Origin: Spirochaetaceae bacterium
GTDB taxonomy: Bacteria > Spirochaetota > Spirochaetia > SZUA-6 > DRHE01
NCBI GenBank assembly: GCA_020353535.1
Contig: CP070696.1
Span: 4,328,549-4,392,548 of the forward strand
Direction of reading: 5' to 3'
Length of the DNA: 64,000 nt
In this document: positions 1,737-9,914 of the stretch, piece by piece
Numbering within the stretch: the stretch's first letter is position 1
How the letters are laid out: each line of letters starts with the position of its first letter
Notes under the pieces: generated by a model
What the model was told of the DNA's origin: nothing
Database searches by the model: none
What the model saw: only the letters and a program-made list of their open reading frames with translations
Program-made: the position numbers and the translations under genes

Positions 1737-1788
1737 CTGCTTTCCGGCGGTCGCTACCCGCGAGGCGATACCAGAACCTGCCCGGAAC

Positions 1789-1817
1789 TTGACAACCCGG
1801 CGATTCCCCCGTATTTT
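1789..1817 (+). promoter_or_regulatory. Sigma-70-type promoter for the ketopantoate-reductase-like gene
   Basis: A perfect -35 box TTGACA (1789-1794) is separated by 17 bases from TATTTT (1812-1817). The predicted start of transcription is near 1824, about 17 bases before the ATG at 1841. No Shine-Dalgarno sequence is visible in that short leader. Confidence 0.6.
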
Positions 1818-1840
1818 GGTGGCGGCTCCGAAATCTTGGT

Positions 1841-2845
1841 ATGCACGTTGCGATTTTAGGCTGCGGCAGTCTGGGCGGCGTGATGGCCGCCCGGCTGGCC
1901 GAACAGCCGGACTTCGATCTTACCGTCATCGATCGCGATCCCCGAATCGTTGAAGCGATAGGGAGGAACGGATTGATCCTCCGCCAGGGGAAAAGGGCGC
2001 GGACCTTCTCCGTACGCCTGGTGGAGGAGGCTCAGGATTTGTGCTTCGACGCCCTGATCCTGGCAACCAAGGCGGGCAGCCTGCTGGAAGCCGCAACGAG
2101 GCTGAAAGACAACCTGGCTCCCCAGGCCTGCGTGATCACTGTTCAAAACGGACTGGCGGCTCTCGATCTGATCGACGCGGTCGGAGCGGACCTGCTGGTT
2201 CCCGGCTGCGTGCTTTGGGGTGCCTCCATGGAGTCACCCGGCGAGTACAGGATCACCAACTCGGGCAGTTTCATCGTCGGGGGGCTTGGACAGACCGGGG
2301 TGAATGTGACCAGGGCTCAAGCTCTGCTGTCCCGGGTATTTCCGGTGACGGTCTCCAACAACATTCGAGGGGTTCTCTGGTCGAAACTGGCCATCACCAC
2401 GACCTTTACCACTCTGGGGGCTATCACCGGCTTGTCTTTCGGAAAACTGGCTGCAAGCAGGGAGATCCGGAACATCATGCTGAGAATAGGCCGGGAGCTG
2501 ATTGAGGTTGGGCGAGCCGAAGGCATCACCTTCGAGCCCCTCACTCCCGCCCTGAACATCGAACGCTTTCTTTCGGATCAGGGATACTCCCGTGCTCTCA
2601 AGCACCTCTTGATCCGCATCCTCGGCTACAAAAACCGGCATGATCAATCCTCGATGCTCGATTCGCTCCGGCAGGGCCGCAAGACCGAGATCGAGTTCAT
2701 CAACGGCCGGCTTGTGCAGAGCGCGGATCGGACGGGCCTTGCGGTTCCTTACAATCGGCTTGCGGTGGACCTGATCCGGGAGATGGAGGAAGGCAGGCGC
2801 CAGGCGGCACGGGAAAACCTGGCCGTCTTTCGCAGTCTGGACTGA
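1841..2845 (+). CDS. Ketopantoate reductase family (ApbA/PanE-like) NADP oxidoreductase
   Basis: The 334-residue protein opens with a Rossmann dinucleotide loop, MHVAILGCGSLGG, and acidic residues after beta-2 (VIDRDPR). The middle has the family pattern TKAGSLLEAA followed by VITVQNGLAALDLI. The C-terminal helical domain contains KLAITTTFTTLGAITG and SSMLDSLRQGRKTEIEFINGRLV, which matches the ketopantoate reductase C-terminal domain, where NG(x) and the catalytic lysine region lie. It probably reduces a 2-keto acid with NADPH. The ketopantoate role in coenzyme A synthesis is possible but unproven, because no panB or panC is nearby. The start is set by the promoter at 1789-1817. Confidence 0.85.
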   Translation: MHVAILGCGSLGGVMAARLAEQPDFDLTVIDRDPRIVEAIGRNGLILRQGKRARTFSVRLVEEAQDLCFDALILATKAGSLLEAATRLKDNLAPQACVITVQNGLAALDLIDAVGADLLVPGCVLWGASMESPGEYRITNSGSFIVGGLGQTGVNVTRAQALLSRVFPVTVSNNIRGVLWSKLAITTTFTTLGAITGLSFGKLAASREIRNIMLRIGRELIEVGRAEGITFEPLTPALNIERFLSDQGYSRALKHLLIRILGYKNRHDQSSMLDSLRQGRKTEIEFINGRLVQSADRTGLAVPYNRLAVDLIREMEEGRRQAARENLAVFRSLD

Positions 2846-2907
2846 AGCGTCCTGTTCCAGATGAGGTGGAGTGTTAGGGGGGCGGAGAAAAAGGGGAAGA
2901 AAACGGG

Positions 2908-3540
2908 ATGGGGTCGAACAAACGGGACCTGTTTCTAAAGGTCGGTGAGCGGCTGTTCAGCCGCTACGGGTACAAAGACGTCAACATCGAAGACATCACC
3001 AAGGAAGCCGGTGTCGGCACGGGAAGCTTTTACACCTACTTCTCGAGCAAGGAAGGCTTCTACGAACAGATCCTCGACAATCTGGAGAGCCAGGGAATCC
3101 GCTCGGTGGATCGTTTGGTGGGGGGCTTTAAATCCCCGGTAAACAAGATGAAGGCGCTGTACCGCTTCACGACCCTGGGGATCAAGAACAATCCCATCCT
3201 GCTCGGAATTCTCACCGGAGACAAGAAGTACATCTACCCGGGACAGCAGAACCGGTTGGCCGGCAAGAGCCTGCTTCGCAGTCATGTGGAAAAGGTGATC
3301 TCCCAGATTATCCGGGAAGGAAGCCGCAAAGGGGTGTTTCGGGTTCGCCAGTACAAGAATCCCAGGCGTATGGTCCTGGCGATCTATGACGCGATTCTCA
3401 TGAACCTCGATTCCGTCAGGGCGGAGGATCTGATGAACGATATCCTGCGCCTGCTGGAACGAGGCTTGAAGCGTAGAGTGCGGCTTCCCGGAAGCGGCAC
3501 GCTGCGGGATCGACGCAAGGTGCGCAGAAGCGAGGAGTGA
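2908..3540 (+). CDS. TetR/AcrR family transcriptional regulator
   Basis: The 210-residue protein begins with a TetR helix-turn-helix at about residues 8-54: ERLFSRYGYKDVNIEDI, then AGVGTGSFYTYFSSKEGFY. This 'YFxSKExxY' ending is diagnostic. The C-terminal two thirds is a poorly conserved helical ligand domain ending in a basic tail. It converges on the alpha-oxoamine synthase gene 28 bases downstream. TetR proteins usually bind AT-rich palindromes, and the only such element nearby is the 35-bp palindrome at 6315-6349. A link between the two is inference only. Confidence 0.9.
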   Translation: MGSNKRDLFLKVGERLFSRYGYKDVNIEDITKEAGVGTGSFYTYFSSKEGFYEQILDNLESQGIRSVDRLVGGFKSPVNKMKALYRFTTLGIKNNPILLGILTGDKKYIYPGQQNRLAGKSLLRSHVEKVISQIIREGSRKGVFRVRQYKNPRRMVLAIYDAILMNLDSVRAEDLMNDILRLLERGLKRRVRLPGSGTLRDRRKVRRSEE

Positions 3541-3568
3541 AGGGCTGTTTTTGAGCCCCTGGTGAGTT

Positions 3569-4819
3569 CTAACGGTTTCTCAGAGAAGGTTTTTCGGAAA
3601 GATCGAGATTCATCCGGTCCCGCATTTTCTTGAAGGCCTCCACGGTCAGATCCACATCTTCGTCGCTATGGGAAGCGGTGGGGATCATGCGGAACATCAC
3701 CACTTCTCTGGGTACAACCGGATAGGTCACCCCGGATACGAATACTCCATAATCTTCGCGGAGCATCTTGATCATGCCCATGGCGATCTGCTCGCTGCCA
3801 GCGGGAACGTACACCGGTGTAATGGGAGAGCGGGTATCGCCGATATCGTATCCCAGCGCCGTCAATCCCTGCTGCAGCCTCTTGGCAACCGCCCACATTC
3901 TTTCGCGATATTCCGGATGATTCTCTATCAATTCCAGTGAGGCCTCCAGGGCATCGACGTATATCATGGGCAGGCTCTTGGCAAACACGTTGGTACGAGC
4001 ATTGTACTTGATGTAGCGCACCACCTCTTCCTCCCCGGCTGTTACACCGCCGATGGCGGCAAAGGCTTTGGCGAAAGTCCCGAAGTACAGATCGATTTTG
4101 TCCTGTACGCCGAAATGCTCACCCAAGCCGCGACCATGTTCCCCCATGACTCCGAAACCGTGAGCATCGTCTACGAACAGGCGGGCTTCATAGCGGTCCT
4201 TGAGCTCGCAGATCCCCGGCAGATCCGCCAGATCACCCCGCATACCGTACACGCCTTCGATTACGATCAGGATCCCCCCTTTACGCTGGCGGTGTGCTGC
4301 CTTGAGATGATGCTCCAGGTGTTCCAGGTCGTTGTGTTTGAAGGGACGGAATCGCCGCCCAGCCGAGGCCAGGATCGTACCATCCACAATGCTGGCGTGG
4401 CTCAAGCGATCCATGACTATCACATCATCCGGTCCGACCAGAGCGCTGATGGTGCCCATCACGCCGAGGTACCCGTAGTTGAACAGGGCGGCAGCCGGCT
4501 TCTGCAGAAAGGCTGCTAACTTCTTCTCCAGGGCGATGTGGCGATCCGTATTCCCGGTCAGCATCCGGGAACCCATCGGTGTGAACGTTCCCCAGGCTTC
4601 CAGGGATTTTCGGGCTGCGCTTCTCACCTCTTCATTGCCCGCCAATCCCAGATAGTTGTTGACGGCCCACATAACGACTTCTTTTCCCTGATAGGTCATG
4701 CGCGGACCGGGGACTCCATCCAACACGGGCCGGGAAAAAAACATATCGTTCCGGACGCGAAAATAGCCGAAGTAACCGCCGTCTCCACGGCATTTGTCGA
4801 ATAGATCTGGCATACCCAT
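3569..4819 (-). CDS. Alpha-oxoamine synthase (SPT/Kbl family), candidate cysteate acyltransferase
   Basis: This 416-residue PLP enzyme belongs to the family that condenses an amino acid with an acyl thioester and releases CO2. Visible features are NNYLGLA (54-60), SHAS (140-143) that stacks on PLP, VDDAHG (216-221) and the PLP lysine K251 in GTFAKAFAAIGG. The N-terminus, with 'VPGPRMTYQGKEVVMWAVNNYLGLA', resembles a version common in Bacteroidota rather than ordinary Kbl or BioF. It lies 64 bases downstream of the cysteate-synthase-like gene on the same strand. That neighbour suggests the amino acid is cysteate and the product 3-dehydrocapnine, a sulfonolipid precursor. Family membership is sure. 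The substrate is inferred from context, and serine or glycine remain alternatives. Confidence 0.8.
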   Translation of the reverse strand: MGMPDLFDKCRGDGGYFGYFRVRNDMFFSRPVLDGVPGPRMTYQGKEVVMWAVNNYLGLAGNEEVRSAARKSLEAWGTFTPMGSRMLTGNTDRHIALEKKLAAFLQKPAAALFNYGYLGVMGTISALVGPDDVIVMDRLSHASIVDGTILASAGRRFRPFKHNDLEHLEHHLKAAHRQRKGGILIVIEGVYGMRGDLADLPGICELKDRYEARLFVDDAHGFGVMGEHGRGLGEHFGVQDKIDLYFGTFAKAFAAIGGVTAGEEEVVRYIKYNARTNVFAKSLPMIYVDALEASLELIENHPEYRERMWAVAKRLQQGLTALGYDIGDTRSPITPVYVPAGSEQIAMGMIKMLREDYGVFVSGVTYPVVPREVVMFRMIPTASHSDEDVDLTVEAFKKMRDRMNLDLSEKPSLRNR

Positions 4820-4883
4820 CTCCTTTATTCGCCTTCAGTACAGATTCGCTGTTATAGAGATCCGCTTGTTTTCAGCTCGCTTG

Positions 4884-6188
4884 CTATGCGGGTGTCTTGA
4901 TCGGCGCGTGCAGGAGCTGCTTTTCCAGCTGGCTGTGGCTGATATTCTTCGAGGCAAACAGGTAGTCCGGCTGGACGGCCTGAATGGTCTCTTCCAGCTC
5001 GAGCCGTTTTCGACCTCCCCCTGTCAGATTCAAGAGAACCACGTCGGAGGAGTCAATAGTTCCCTGGCGCACGGCCCGTACCAGTCCGGCCAGGGCTACT
5101 TCCGCCGCGGGATCGAGATCACACCCCTCCAAGGATTCGAACAGCCACCCGGCCAGCAGCGCCTCTTCACTGGTCACTGAATACATCTGCCCGGCGGTAT
5201 CAGTGAGGGCATCGTACACACCTCCGCTGATTCCATAGGGAGGTTTACGGTTGCTTAATACCCCTGAATGCAGCCTGTGAATCCGATCCTTCGCCTCCTT
5301 TTCAGTCATCGGAGGAAGATCCCTGGATTCCACTGCCCAGGCATCGCTCATCAGGGCAAAGGGCTCGTTCTGTACCAGATGGAGCTTCATCCTATGGCTG
5401 CCGTACCGTCCTTCACGATTTAAGCGCCGACTCATCTCCCAGGCGGCGATACCGCCTGTTCCGCTGCCCACCGCCTGAAAGTAGTGGTCGGGAACCTTGC
5501 CGATCGCCTCCACTGCGGCCAGGACAACCGTACCCATGCCATCACGGCGGGCGACGTTCTTGGCTCCTCCTTCCGGAAAATATCCATCCAGCTCTGCTAT
5601 CTTTGCCGCCAGCTCGATGGCATCGAGATAATCTCCATCGCCCTGCAGCACGGCCAGCTTCACTTCCGGGTGCTTTTCGACTGTCAGCCACATCGCCGGC
5701 AGGGCGGCTTCCGGCACAACGATCAGGGCCGGAACGGCGTGGCGGGAACAGGTTTGCAGGAACGCCCGACCGGTATTTCCCGCCGAGGAGACCACCAGTG
5801 TATCATCGCATCCTTCAGGTCTGCGGGCGCAGACGGGAAAGGCTTCCAACTCTTTGAAGCTGCAGGTTTCCATAACTCCGCCCCGTTCGGGCCAGTAGCC
5901 ATTGAAGGCCAGCCAGAGATTCTCCAGACCGATTCGCTCTGCCAGATTCTCACTTCGAAATACAGCAGTTCTAACAGGTGTGTCGAAAACGCTGCGGATC
6001 GGCAACCACTGGCTATATCGAAAGAGTCCCGGATGATCCGGCTGAAGCGTCAGCGGTTCCTGTCCATACTCGGAGCGCAACAGGGCAGGACCGTGATCCT
6101 CGTCGCAGTGAAGCAGGAAACGGTCTTCCGCATCCGCGTGTAATTTCCCGCAGCGTGCGCATTGCAGTTTGTAGCTGTCAGTTTCCAT
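4884..6188 (-). CDS. Cysteate synthase-like PLP enzyme (threonine synthase fold)
   Basis: The 434-residue protein starts with a Cys-rich N-terminal segment (CARCGKL, 10-16) and continues with an FNGYWPE motif (95-101). The PLP lysine is K112 in CSFKELEA, followed by the phosphate-binding SSAGNTG (134-140) and a C-terminal LTGGGRKRL. This pattern matches what is known of archaeal cysteate synthase, which converts O-phosphoserine and sulfite to L-cysteate, rather than housekeeping threonine synthase. The chosen ATG (6186-6188) has GGAG 8 bases upstream. An upstream extension of 30 residues is open but lacks the family pattern. It heads a two-gene minus-strand unit with the alpha-oxoamine synthase and diverges from a sulfite-forming reductase. 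The call rests on remembered motif similarity, so a threonine synthase relative of other specificity remains possible. Confidence 0.75.
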   Translation of the reverse strand: METDSYKLQCARCGKLHADAEDRFLLHCDEDHGPALLRSEYGQEPLTLQPDHPGLFRYSQWLPIRSVFDTPVRTAVFRSENLAERIGLENLWLAFNGYWPERGGVMETCSFKELEAFPVCARRPEGCDDTLVVSSAGNTGRAFLQTCSRHAVPALIVVPEAALPAMWLTVEKHPEVKLAVLQGDGDYLDAIELAAKIAELDGYFPEGGAKNVARRDGMGTVVLAAVEAIGKVPDHYFQAVGSGTGGIAAWEMSRRLNREGRYGSHRMKLHLVQNEPFALMSDAWAVESRDLPPMTEKEAKDRIHRLHSGVLSNRKPPYGISGGVYDALTDTAGQMYSVTSEEALLAGWLFESLEGCDLDPAAEVALAGLVRAVRQGTIDSSDVVLLNLTGGGRKRLELEETIQAVQPDYLFASKNISHSQLEKQLLHAPIKTPA

Positions 6189-6314
6189 TGATTTTTCTCC
6201 ATCTCGGGCTTTTCCCACGGTGAATGACCTTTGCCGCATTTTCAACCTTCCCCGGGTCTTACCGCTGAAACATATCACAAAAGCAAAAAAAAAGAAAGGG
6301 CAATTTTTTTTGAT

Positions 6315-6349
6315 ACCGAATAAATGAATATATTATTCATTTATTCGGT
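6315..6349. promoter_or_regulatory. Perfect 16-bp inverted repeat, putative operator between cysteate synthase and cysH
   Basis: ACCGAATAAATGAATA and its exact reverse complement are separated by TAT. The element lies in the divergent intergenic region (6189-6487), flanked by A- and T-tracts that would bend DNA. The core TGAATA-N3-TATTCA resembles operators of TetR-type fatty-acid regulators such as Bacillus FadR. It is AT-rich and no genes converge on it, so a terminator role is unlikely. It is 50 bases upstream of the cysH -35 box and 127 bases upstream of the cysteate synthase start. Confidence 0.65.
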
Positions 6350-6398
6350 TCTTTAGATTTTTTTTCCGGATTTTTTTAATTTCTTATGATGTCGAATC

Positions 6399-6428
6399 TT
6401 GACAGCTGACACTTCGCTCTTCCATACT
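6399..6428 (+). promoter_or_regulatory. Promoter of cysH
   Basis: TTGACA (6399-6404) and CATACT (6423-6428) are spaced by 18 bases. GAGGAG at 6474-6479 provides a ribosome binding site 8 bases before the cysH ATG. Confidence 0.55.
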
Positions 6429-6487
6429 ATCGTAATGAACCTTCTGTGAGCCTTCGAATTCCGGCTTGATACAGAGGAGAAAATCGG

Positions 6488-7192
6488 ATGAATGCAGTTG
6501 CAGAGAAAAATCCCGTATCCTACCTCGTTGATCAATTAACGTTCAATGAAAAGGTCGAGCGTTCCTTGGCCTTGATCGAGAATGCCTACCGGGAGTTCGG
6601 TGAAACCCTGGTTGTGGCCAACAGTCTCGGAAAAGATTCGGTGGCGGTCTGGCATCTGGCCAAGCAGATAAGTTCGGCCATTCGCGGATTCATTGTTACC
6701 ACCCGCTTCAAGCCCAAAGAAACGAAGGAGTTCATGCGCGAACAGATCAGAGCCTACCCGGAACTCCAGGTGTTCCAAAACGATGAAGCAATCCCTCATA
6801 ACCTGTACGCGATGGATCCGGATCGCTGCTGCGATCTGCTCAAAGTCAAGCCGACCCGCCGGGCGATCGAAGATATGGGGGTGCGCTGTTGGGTCACGGG
6901 CCTGCGCTGCACCGAAGGCCGAACCCGTACCGACTACCAGGAGGTCGAGGAACGTGATAGGGGACTGGTCAAGCTCAATCCGATTCTGCTGTGGAAGGAA
7001 CGGGAGGTCTGGCAGTATTTGGCCCTCAACAACGTGGGAGTGAATCCCCTGTACGCCAGGGGATATCGCTCTCTGGGCTGCGAGCCCTGCACTCGAATCA
7101 CCAGCGATGACAACGAACGGGCCGGCCGCTGGGTCGGAACGAGCAAGTGCGGCGGCGAGTGCGGTATCCACACCCGCCCGCTTAAGGCTTGA
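6488..7192 (+). CDS. cysH: Fe-S-type adenylyl-sulfate (APS/PAPS) reductase, sulfite-forming
   Basis: The 234-residue cytoplasmic enzyme reduces APS, or PAPS, to sulfite with thioredoxin. The PP-loop is NSLGKDS (45-51). Four cysteines typical of the 4Fe-4S APS-reductase branch are present, CC at 114-115 and CEPC at 198-201. The catalytic cysteine is C225 in ECGIH near the C-terminus. No other assimilatory sulfate genes (ATP sulfurylase, sulfite reductase) are adjacent. Instead it diverges from the cysteate-synthase-like gene, so its sulfite may be channelled into cysteate. Housekeeping cysteine synthesis is the conventional alternative. Confidence 0.9.
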   Translation: MNAVAEKNPVSYLVDQLTFNEKVERSLALIENAYREFGETLVVANSLGKDSVAVWHLAKQISSAIRGFIVTTRFKPKETKEFMREQIRAYPELQVFQNDEAIPHNLYAMDPDRCCDLLKVKPTRRAIEDMGVRCWVTGLRCTEGRTRTDYQEVEERDRGLVKLNPILLWKEREVWQYLALNNVGVNPLYARGYRSLGCEPCTRITSDDNERAGRWVGTSKCGGECGIHTRPLKA

Positions 7193-7215
7193 ATTTCACT
7201 GGCTTTGTATAACAG

Positions 7216-8277
7216 CTAATCCTTTACCCGATTGAAGGCCAGGCTCCTCAACATCCACCTCGGCAGCGCCCTGTCCGGGTGCCGCTTGGTGAGATCGAGG
7301 TACCAGCCCCACTTCTTGACGATCTCCAGTTTATGGGGTTCCACGAACTCGATGAGGGTTCCATCCGGATCTTCGGCGTAGGCGAAGCGTCCGGCGGAGT
7401 CGCCCATGTCGAATCCGCTGGCACTGTCAACTGTAAAGGGTTGACCGAACTGTTCGCAGCGGCGTTTGAGTTTGTCCATCCCGTTCACGTCAAAGCAGAC
7501 GTGGATGAACCCCAGATCACCCCAGTAGCGATCGGCGAATATCTTCCTCGGCTGCCTGTCCAGGGATTGAAACAGCTCGATTCTGGTCGGTCCCAGGACG
7601 GGAGAGAAGGCACCCCTACGGGGTTGACTGTGGCTGAGCAGCATGCGACGGAACTTGCCACTTCCGCCAGGAAGAGGCTTCAAGTCGTCGAACACTCCCG
7701 TCCGATCGTAGATGACGCTGTCATAACCCAGGATCTCCGCATAGAACTCCCTGGATTTGTCTACGTCGCTGCTTCCGATCGAACAGCCCGCCGCTCCACC
7801 TGTTGGATATTTGGTTTTTAAGAACCAACCATTGCTCTCGATGACTTGAAAGATAAGTCCGAAGGGATCGCGGAGGAAAAAATGAGCGGTTCCCGACGGG
7901 TCGGCGGTTACACCGCCCAGCAATTCCACATCCTGGGCCTGCAGAAAGGTGAATGCCACCCGCACATCCCGCGCCTTAATTCGGGCCGAGAAGATCCCCA
8001 GGTCTCCGAGTCGCACCTGGAATTCCGGCGCCTGGGTTTTTCTGCTCTTGTACTGCCAGACCTCCAACCCGCCTCCGCCCTGAAGGTTCAGCGCCAGAAT
8101 GGCGTGTCGGGCTCTGGGCTTTCCTCCCGTGTAGGGCAGCATCAGGGCTGCCTCTCCGTCGTCTTCGAACACCCGAATGTCGAAACCGAGTTTTTTACGG
8201 TACCACCGAAAGGCGCCGTCCAGATCCGGGATTCCGGCGCCGATCTGCTGTATTCCACTGATGATATACTCGTTCAT
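7216..8277 (-). CDS. Two-domain VOC (glyoxalase/dioxygenase superfamily) protein
   Basis: The 353-residue protein carries two vicinal-oxygen-chelate modules. The first, about 8-130, opens GIQQIGAGIPDLDGAFRWY. The second, about 165-320, begins near CSIGSSDVDKSREFYAEILGYD and ends AYAEDPDGTLIEFVEP. VOC proteins bind a metal through paired modules and act as lyases, isomerases or ring-cleaving dioxygenases. The C-terminal WGWYLDLTKRHPDRALPRW extension is unusual, and its function is unknown. It converges on cysH (24-base gap) and diverges from kbl, so it is probably its own transcription unit. Confidence 0.8.
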   Translation of the reverse strand: MNEYIISGIQQIGAGIPDLDGAFRWYRKKLGFDIRVFEDDGEAALMLPYTGGKPRARHAILALNLQGGGGLEVWQYKSRKTQAPEFQVRLGDLGIFSARIKARDVRVAFTFLQAQDVELLGGVTADPSGTAHFFLRDPFGLIFQVIESNGWFLKTKYPTGGAAGCSIGSSDVDKSREFYAEILGYDSVIYDRTGVFDDLKPLPGGSGKFRRMLLSHSQPRRGAFSPVLGPTRIELFQSLDRQPRKIFADRYWGDLGFIHVCFDVNGMDKLKRRCEQFGQPFTVDSASGFDMGDSAGRFAYAEDPDGTLIEFVEPHKLEIVKKWGWYLDLTKRHPDRALPRWMLRSLAFNRVKD

Positions 8278-8376
8278 AGCTCAAGCGAAGAGCTTAGCGA
8301 TACTCCAGCCTCACGTCAAGGCAGGCCTGGCCGCGTTGCCTGGACGAAGCCGTAGCGGTGGTACTATCATGTTCTC

Positions 8377-9564
8377 ATGAACCAAGAGTATCATCAATCC
8401 CTGGAAAACTCGATCCGAGAGATGGAGAGCAAAGGCACCCTAAAGCGCCTGCGCTACCTGCAGAGCCCAATGGACGCACGGGTACGCATGGAGGGCAAGG
8501 GGGAGATCATCATTCTATCCTCGAACAACTACCTCGGCCTCTCCAACCACCCACAGGTGATTCAGGCGGGACGGGAAGCCCTTCAGCACTACGGAGCGGG
8601 CACCGCTTCGGTTCGCTTCATCTGCGGGACCTTTTCGATTCACCGCGAGCTGGAGCAGAAGCTGGCCTCCTTTATGGGCAGCGAAGCCGCCTTGAGCTAT
8701 GTTTCCTGCTGGAATGCCAACACAGGGGCTATTCCCGTGCTGGTCGGCGAAGGGGATGTGATCATCTCCGATGAACTGAACCATGCCAGCATCATCGACG
8801 GCGTGCGCTTGAGCAGGGCCCGGCGACTGATCTACAAACACGCCGATATGGAGGAACTGGAGGAGCGGCTGAAAAGCTGCCAGGATGCCGGCACCCGCCT
8901 GATTGTCACAGACGGGGTGTTCAGCATGGAGGGGGACCTGGCTCCTCTTCAGCGGATCGTGGAACTGGCCCGAGCCTACGATGCCGTGACGCTGGTGGAT
9001 GATTCCCACGGAACCGGAGTTATGGGCAGGGGAGGTCGGGGCGTGGCGGAGCATTTCGGTGTTCTCGGGCAGGTGGATGTGATCACCGGCACCCTGGGTA
9101 AGGCCCTGGGCGGCGCCGCGGGGGGTTTCGTAGCCTCCAGCTCACAGGTCATCGAGCTGCTCACCCAATCCTCCCGCCCTCAGATTTTCTCCAATGCCCT
9201 GCCGGCCACAATCGCAGCCAGCGCCTTGAAGGCGGTGGAGGTACTGGAGGGCAATTCCTCCCTGGTGAAAAAACTCCACGACAACGCCGAGTACCTGCGT
9301 GCAGGACTCCGGGAGCGGGGATTTCATCCCCTCGATGCGCCCTCGGCGATCATCCCGATTCTGGTTGGTGAGACCTCCTTTGCGATCCGCATGAGCGAGA
9401 AACTTCTGGATGAGGGAATCTTCGTCACCGGATTCGGTTATCCCGTCGTTCCCGAGGGCAAGGCCAGACTTAGGGTACAGTCTTCAGCGGCCCTGGAGCG
9501 GGCGGATATAGATCAAGCTCTGGAAGCTTTTTCCAAGGTCGGTACCGAGGTGGGTCTGCTGTAG
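8377..9564 (+). CDS. kbl: Glycine C-acetyltransferase-type alpha-oxoamine synthase
   Basis: This 395-residue PLP enzyme has SSNNYLGLSNHP (48-59), HASIIDGVRLS (136-146), TLVDDSHGTGVMG (205-217) and the PLP lysine K242 in GTLGKALGGAAGG, which match 2-amino-3-ketobutyrate CoA ligase closely. The usual reaction joins glycine and acetyl-CoA, or runs in reverse during threonine breakdown. The partner threonine dehydrogenase (tdh) is not in the window. The gene lies next to the sulfur cluster that contains a second, diverged member of the family. No strong ribosome binding site is visible at the ATG. Confidence 0.88.
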   Translation: MNQEYHQSLENSIREMESKGTLKRLRYLQSPMDARVRMEGKGEIIILSSNNYLGLSNHPQVIQAGREALQHYGAGTASVRFICGTFSIHRELEQKLASFMGSEAALSYVSCWNANTGAIPVLVGEGDVIISDELNHASIIDGVRLSRARRLIYKHADMEELEERLKSCQDAGTRLIVTDGVFSMEGDLAPLQRIVELARAYDAVTLVDDSHGTGVMGRGGRGVAEHFGVLGQVDVITGTLGKALGGAAGGFVASSSQVIELLTQSSRPQIFSNALPATIAASALKAVEVLEGNSSLVKKLHDNAEYLRAGLRERGFHPLDAPSAIIPILVGETSFAIRMSEKLLDEGIFVTGFGYPVVPEGKARLRVQSSAALERADIDQALEAFSKVGTEVGLL

Positions 9565-9602
9565 CAGGCACAAACTTTTTTTCTTTTTATCATGAAAAGC
9601 TA

Positions 9603-9631
9603 TTGCCAAACTACGGCCATACTGATATGAT
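9603..9631 (+). promoter_or_regulatory. trp operon promoter
   Basis: TTGCCA (9603-9608) and TATGAT (9626-9631) are spaced by 17 bases. Transcription should start near 9638, only about six bases before the leader-peptide ATG at 9644. Confidence 0.7.
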
Positions 9632-9643
9632 CCACGTGTTACT

Positions 9644-9715
9644 ATGAATAGAAACATACTAAATGGCATCTGGCCGTGGTGGTCCACCCCCCCTGGACCG
9701 CCCGGAAGCGCCTGA
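9644..9715 (+). CDS. trpL: trp operon leader peptide (Trp-rich)
   Basis: A 23-codon frame encodes a peptide with I-W-P-W-W at residues 9-13 and then a Pro/Gly-rich tail, ending TGA. Three tryptophan codons in four in a leader of this length upstream of trpE are the hallmark of ribosome-mediated attenuation. The tandem codons 12 and 13 (9677-9682) fall within the ascending arm of a pause hairpin: GGTGGTCCA (9678-9686) pairs with TGGACCGCC (9694-9702), with one wobble. No Shine-Dalgarno site precedes the ATG, and the promoter implies a nearly leaderless start. CCTGGA (9692-9697) can alternatively pair with TCCAGG (9728-9733) as an antiterminator stem. Confidence 0.8.
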   Translation: MNRNILNGIWPWWSTPPGPPGSA

Positions 9716-9738
9716 AAGTTCGTATCTTCCAGGCCATT

Positions 9739-9777
9739 GCCGCGGCGGTTCGAGATTTCGGGTCGCCCGGCTTTTTT
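9739..9777 (+). terminator. trp attenuator terminator
   Basis: GCCG-C-GGCG (9739-9747, one bulged C) pairs with CGCCCGGC (9764-9771) and is followed by six T residues (9772-9777). It begins just after the antiterminator strand TCCAGG. Stalling at the leader Trp codons should therefore favour readthrough, and efficient translation should favour termination. Confidence 0.75.
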
Positions 9778-9808
9778 ACCTTTGAGGGTATGAGCTAAAA
9801 AAAGCAGC

Positions 9809-9839
9809 AAGCCATGCGATCCGACGCGTGGCTTTTTTT
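9809..9839 (+). terminator. Second intrinsic terminator before trpE
   Basis: AAGCCATGCG (9809-9818) pairs with CGCGTGGCTT (9825-9834), including one T-G wobble, across a six-base loop. A run of seven T residues follows (9833-9839). It lies 76 bases before the trpE ATG and after the attenuator, giving two terminators in series in the leader. Confidence 0.7.
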
Positions 9840-9914
9840 ATTGTGTACGCCCGGCCCAATAGCGTCCGCGCCAGCGGGATGCAGATACGGGCTCATCACG
9901 TTGCGGAGGTGACG

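Follow-up and report, generated by a model that had tools for sequence, protein, structure and literature searches.

The window analyzed here, a 64,000-nucleotide stretch within a single 4.84 Mb contig of a Spirochaetales bacterium (genome completeness estimate 93%), contains at 3569-7192 three intact genes: cysH, coding for a protein of the adenylyl sulfate (APS) reductase type, and, divergently oriented from it, a gene for a pyridoxal phosphate (PLP) enzyme resembling cysteate synthase, followed by one for an alpha-oxoamine synthase resembling cysteate C-fatty-acyltransferase (CFAT). The original prediction, made from the sequence alone, had proposed that these genes supply cysteate and commit it to sulfonolipid. 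The evidence presented below makes it very probable that this bacterium has here the entry locus for making capnine-type sulfonolipids, the lipid itself being predicted. The pathway is a known one with ordinary enzymes; what is new is the phylum and the distinctive layout of the locus (Table 1).

Table 1. Features of the locus, with positions in the window
Feature	Position	Strand	Basis
CFAT (CapB/SulA-like), PLP alpha-oxoamine synthase	3569..4813, open frame to 4819	-	PDB matches, Lys251/Lys281, model cut-offs
Predicted cysteate synthase, archaeal/Alistipes type (TIGR03844)	4884..6188, open frame to 6278	-	TIGR03844, PDB 9k3c
Intergenic region separating cysH from the divergent cysteate synthase-CFAT pair, with presumed promoters	6189..6487	.	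Coordinates and revised start codon
CysH, APS reductase-type, Fe-S cysteines, predicted sulfite source	6488..7192	+	NF002537, PF01507, motifs, relatives G002 and G003
Two-domain VOC (glyoxalase-fold) protein, convergent with cysH	7216..8277	-	PF00903 and PF13669, neighbourhood, co-occurrence
TetR-family regulator, convergent with CFAT	2908..3540	+	PF00440, operon adjacency in relatives
Canonical glycine C-acetyltransferase (Kbl), adjoins the locus	8377-9564		Passes glycine C-acetyltransferase cut-off

The two minus-strand genes are separated by ~65 bp, and ~300 bp lie between the cysteate synthase gene and the divergent cysH. Homology of the cysteate synthase begins at residue 36 and the starts of its relatives fall at the equivalent of residue 31, which makes base 6188 its likely start; that of CFAT is likely 4813. 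The arrangement of the three genes, correctly described in the original prediction, recurs in relatives and is therefore not a matter of chance. The closest named relative, 'Spirochaetales bacterium isolate Zod_Metabat.745', possesses a CFAT 92% identical to that of the window. Mis-binning of the metagenome-assembled genome (MAG) is unlikely, because the gene order is repeated in two genomes of the same genus and in related families.

The PLP gene scores 489 bits with TIGR03844, the cysteate synthase model (164 bits above its cut-off of 324.9), as against 74 bits with the best threonine-synthase model. The nearest solved structure, 9k3c, is likewise a cysteate synthase (E 3.3e-111, 375 bits, residues 5-412), and the best threonine synthase structure matched at 9e-17 (64 bits for 2zsj). 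Model scores and structure matches together rule out a threonine synthase, so that the grouping with these enzymes that would have spoken against the prediction was not borne out, and the product is a predicted cysteate synthase, as its motifs had originally suggested. It resembles the archaeal/Alistipes type in passing the equivalog cut-off and in its best structure match, and differs in that its gene is immediately followed by CFAT as an operon. The only one of 14 named control genomes to pass the TIGR03844 cut-off was Methanosarcina acetivorans; the cysteate synthase of Methanosarcina serves coenzyme M. Capnocytophaga uses the distantly related CapA, and Alistipes and Odoribacter a homologue of the archaeal enzyme (PMC10191378).

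The alpha-oxoamine synthase falls below the cut-off of every Kbl, BioF, serine palmitoyltransferase (SPT) and ALAS model. Its best PDB matches with phmmer are 28eh, 'Cysteate-C-fatty acyltransferase' (2.7e-116, 392 bits), and 7u7h (3.6e-110, 372 bits), which from its record name and PMC9304779 we infer to be SulA of A. finegoldii; the SPT match, 3a2b, reached 2.8e-75 (257 bits) and Kbl 230 bits. The active sites of SulA and SPT are reported to differ by Lys281, which is Ala in SPT, and K281A to be inactive (PMC9304779). Both Lys251 and Lys281 of SulA recur in the window protein with identical numbering; 93 of 93 CFAT relatives have Lys281 and likewise Lys251, and Kbl has Asn at 281, both in the window and at two further loci (L015 and L020; G and L numbers are our labels for genomes and loci). 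Homology to SulA (Alfi_1224, the cysteate acyl-acyl carrier protein (ACP) transferase of Alistipes finegoldii) and to CapB/CFAT of Capnocytophaga, Flavobacterium and Chryseobacterium is full-length, over ~400 residues, with conservation of the PLP Lys251, the specificity Lys281 and the active-site His, Asp and Thr positions. The difference is that the spirochaete enzymes form a clade of their own, the window CFAT being 43-48% identical to members of the Bacteroidota/Balneolota/Chlorobiota clade. Cut-offs, structure matches and Lys281 rule out Kbl, SPT or BioF; the protein is, as far as its sequence goes, a cysteate C-fatty-acyltransferase. Thus the early impression of an enzyme unlike plain Kbl was upheld, and the clustering with serine- or glycine-using enzymes that had been considered did not materialize.

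A second alpha-oxoamine synthase adjoining the locus, at 8377-9564, could be mistaken for a pathway member; it was ruled out as such by its passing the glycine C-acetyltransferase cut-off and by Asn at position 281. At L016:7610-11227 (MAG HKST-UBA127, labelled Bacteroidetes), a fusion protein of 1205 aa combines CFAT with an AMP-ligase and a phosphopantetheine carrier domain; this suggests acyl loading on a built-in ACP and is consistent with the use of acyl-ACP by CFAT.

The association of the two enzymes was assessed in 41 genomes around the host, in which CFAT was counted at E <= 1e-110 and cysteate synthase above the TIGR03844 cut-off. Cysteate synthase was found in 14 and CFAT in 18 of these genomes; 13 of the 14 are among the 18, and in the fourteenth, G008, a CFAT cut by the contig end lies beside cysteate synthase. 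All 14 class relatives with cysteate synthase hence have CFAT, and the pair is adjacent in 13, the two genes of G026 being on separate contigs. Across the phylum, evenly sampled, 9 of 393 genomes passed the cysteate synthase cut-off; the trait is therefore patchy.

The family identities of cysteate synthase, CFAT and CysH, together with their linkage, can be read from the sequence, and from them we infer the remaining parts of the scheme, namely sulfite channelling, reduction, N-acylation, regulation and the VOC reaction. CysH would convert adenylyl sulfate to sulfite, which cysteate synthase, by its family, would combine with O-phosphoserine to yield L-cysteate. CFAT, by its family and the diagnostic Lys281, would form 3-ketocapnine by condensing an acyl thioester, probably acyl-ACP, with cysteate. 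A short-chain reductase encoded elsewhere would then yield capnine, whose N-acylation would give the sulfonolipid. TetR would probably regulate the operon, and the VOC protein probably catalyzes a metal-dependent step in the same pathway.

With regard to the supply of sulfite, CysH is a protein of 234 aa in which the originally noted motifs of a cysH-type APS reductase were all found: CC (DRCCDLLK), CxxC (CEPC) and ECGIH. It scores 161 bits with NF002537 (CysH equivalog; cut-off 154), matches PF01507 and lies below the cut-off of TIGR02055. The NIR_SIR domain was not found in the window's genome, which hence has no recognisable assimilatory or dissimilatory sulfite reductase, so that sulfite would not be drained to sulfide; nor was a sulfite reductase found in the host's sampled family. 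Sulfate activation genes and/or cysH lie near CFAT in seven loci from several phyla (L020, L023, L039, L093, L098, L099 and L179), the sulfate-activation genes being at most ~10 kb from CFAT in L039, L093, L098 and L099, and cysH is beside CFAT in G002 and G003. Two of the loci in detail: 1) L020 (Spirochaetales) has a one-strand run of cysD, a cysN-cysC fusion, cysteate synthase, CFAT and cysH, with VOC convergent. 2) L023 (a Chlorobiota MAG, 1768-9854) has VOC, cysH, cysD, cysN, an SLC13-like transporter, a short-chain dehydrogenase/reductase (SDR) and a cysQ-like gene, divergent from CFAT; the transporter and cysQ are named from sequence appearance only, and the run is a candidate for a complete sulfate-to-capnine cluster. 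This synteny supports CysH as the predicted source of sulfite for cysteate. In G001 (L015/L180, an 11,183-base contig of the same genus) VOC, CFAT and TetR are kept, but exactly between VOC and CFAT both cysteate synthase and cysH are absent, and neither turned up in the rest of that genome; this, too, favours CysH as the source.

Several observations weigh against the interpretation as a whole: 1) ATP sulfurylase (PF01747/Sat, CysD) and APS kinase were not found in the 4.84 Mb contig, and the source of APS for CysH is unexplained here for that reason. 2) The same CysH subfamily lies beside sulfite reductase in G011, G016, G021 and G034, and is thus not pathway-specific. 3) G003 and G019 have CFAT without a TIGR03844 cysteate synthase, which a CapA-type enzyme may replace; G003 (L179) keeps cysH, TetR and VOC. 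4) There is no SDR in the window, in line with the original placement of the 3-keto reductase outside it; the search elsewhere in the genome yielded ~40 SDRs, none of which scores near the cut-off of the curated 3-ketodihydrosphingosine reductase (KdsR) model.

The first two points, along with G005, G037 and G039, in which the operon is present with no cysH at the locus, speak for a real pathway fed with environmental sulfite or with sulfite released in sulfonate or thiosulfate metabolism, CysH being an assimilatory relic or acting on another substrate. We regard this as rather unlikely in view of the seven loci with sulfate activation and/or cysH near CFAT and the retention of cysH in a genome without any sulfite reductase. 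Canonical assimilatory sulfate reduction (CysDN-CysH-CysIJ) shares with the locus the CysH subfamily common to the sulfite-reductase-linked copies of relatives, and differs in that the host is without sulfite reductase and its cysH stands opposite cysteate synthase. Of the proposal that the three genes commit cysteate to sulfonolipid, the enzyme calls and, by synteny in several lineages, the CysH link are supported; the lipid and the 3-keto reductase are predictions, as is a supply of APS in this genome.

As for the later steps, a reductase gap is to be expected, because in characterised Bacteroidota the active 3-ketocapnine reductases are divergent proteins encoded away from CFAT (PMC11211663). 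SDRs of relatives are found directly 3' of CFAT in L105 (same order, with a 4-base overlap with CFAT) and L017 (Aminicenantes); these two are related and 43% identical. Another SDR family lies near CFAT in L016, L059 and L093. The CFAT-linked SDRs are good candidates for the 3-keto reductase. The best match in the host genome for several of them, at 28-37% identity, is the SDR G000:C1:102365-102943 (L110/L185), which adjoins aspartokinase and no lipid gene; the G003 copy near CFAT has that older gene order. This SDR is a possible 3-ketocapnine reductase. No N-acyltransferase was identified, and together with the lack of an SDR near the KdsR cut-off this raises the alternative that the locus, its later enzymes being absent, yields no full N-acylated sulfonolipid; its product would then be 3-ketocapnine or capnine in free form, or else a signalling lipid that is not acylated. 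Free capnine also occurs in Capnocytophaga (PMC9304779). Given the ~40 SDRs of the genome and the divergent, unlinked reductases of Bacteroidota, this alternative appears improbable. That the cysteate synthase serves another product (coenzyme M, taurine or sulfolactate) beside a separate serine- or glycine-using alpha-oxoamine synthase, as the Methanosarcina enzyme and the split genes of G026 might suggest, can scarcely be credited when each of the 14 class relatives with cysteate synthase also has CFAT, adjacent in 13, Lys281 is invariant, the nearest structure is a CFAT and a separate canonical Kbl is present.

A tree built from 93 CFATs shows two neighbouring clades, one of spirochaete-type enzymes (SH-aLRT 97) and one of Bacteroidota/Balneolota/Chlorobiota enzymes (SH-aLRT 95), the root being tentative due to the long outgroup branch. 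Candidatus Aminicenantes, Bacillus salacetis and a single MAG labelled Bacteroidetes also fall within the spirochaete-type clade. The topology speaks for a separate and old spirochaete branch that is not nested in the Bacteroidota, and a recent transfer from the latter is not supported by the tree. The CFAT of the Gram-positive Bacillus salacetis (L021:1353-2627) is 55% identical and retains Lys281; there is no cysteate synthase in the examined stretch of its 107 kb contig, which has Bacillus-like neighbours.

Sulfonolipids influence gliding, the development of choanoflagellates and mammalian immunity, and serve as metabolite markers of particular bacteria. Their bacterial synthesis was considered apparently limited to Bacteroidota in a 2023 review (PMC10191378). 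Homologues have been reported from 13 phyla of human bacteria, cysteate synthase and CFAT being accepted up to an E-value of 1e-20 (PMC11211663); Kbl and CFAT match each other here at ~1e-67, and this limit consequently does not separate the two. No description of sulfonolipid genes in spirochaetes was found in the open-licence literature by titles, abstracts and term searches. A well-supported set of these genes in Spirochaetota, together with the related ones of Aminicenantes and a Bacillus, would undermine the use of sulfonolipids as a marker of Bacteroidota. Furthermore, unlike the Bacteroidota genomes, these loci offer candidate genes in linkage with the pathway for the 3-keto reductase, for sulfite supply, for a regulator and for a possible extra enzyme.

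The VOC and TetR genes are associated genes that were missed in the first reading. In many relatives the operon has next to it a TetR gene of one and the same family, whose product probably regulates it. The VOC gene, which codes for 353 residues at 7216-8277, adjoins CFAT in several Spirochaetes families, in Chlorobiota L023 and in the Bacteroidota MAGs L059 (Bacteroidales) and L016. With fragments counted, it is present in 14 of the 20 genomes with CFAT or cysteate synthase versus none of the 21 others (Fisher p ~1e-6 over the 41 genomes, not corrected for relatedness). No curated NCBIfam model matched it above its cut-off. The AlphaFold model (pLDDT 84.8, from seven sequences; the other four models were lower) has as top Foldseek matches Zea mays GLX-I (E 2.6e-13) and human GLOD4, at 13-16% identity and TM ~0.55. 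Its predicted fold is hence that of the two-domain glyoxalase I/GLOD4-type VOC proteins, from which it differs in this low identity and in a neighbourhood and occurrence tied to CFAT. Two glutamates, Glu72 and Glu310, are invariant, and positions 11 (Gln or His) and 259 (His, Gln or Glu) would fit a metal site of the glyoxalase-I type. We know of no VOC-fold metalloprotein in described sulfonolipid biosynthesis, and the protein is probably an extra pathway component with a putative metal-dependent step. As a tentative extension, Spirochaetota might possess an ancient dedicated sulfate-to-sulfonolipid module, to which VOC would add a step (e.g. isomerisation or epimerisation of keto-capnine or of a coenzyme A/ACP precursor), with APS coming from an unrecognised source. 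VOC, CFAT and cysteate synthase are all kept in L107 (G038), a 96% complete spirochaete-class genome of 1.4 Mb, hinting that the lipid matters even in this reduced genome.

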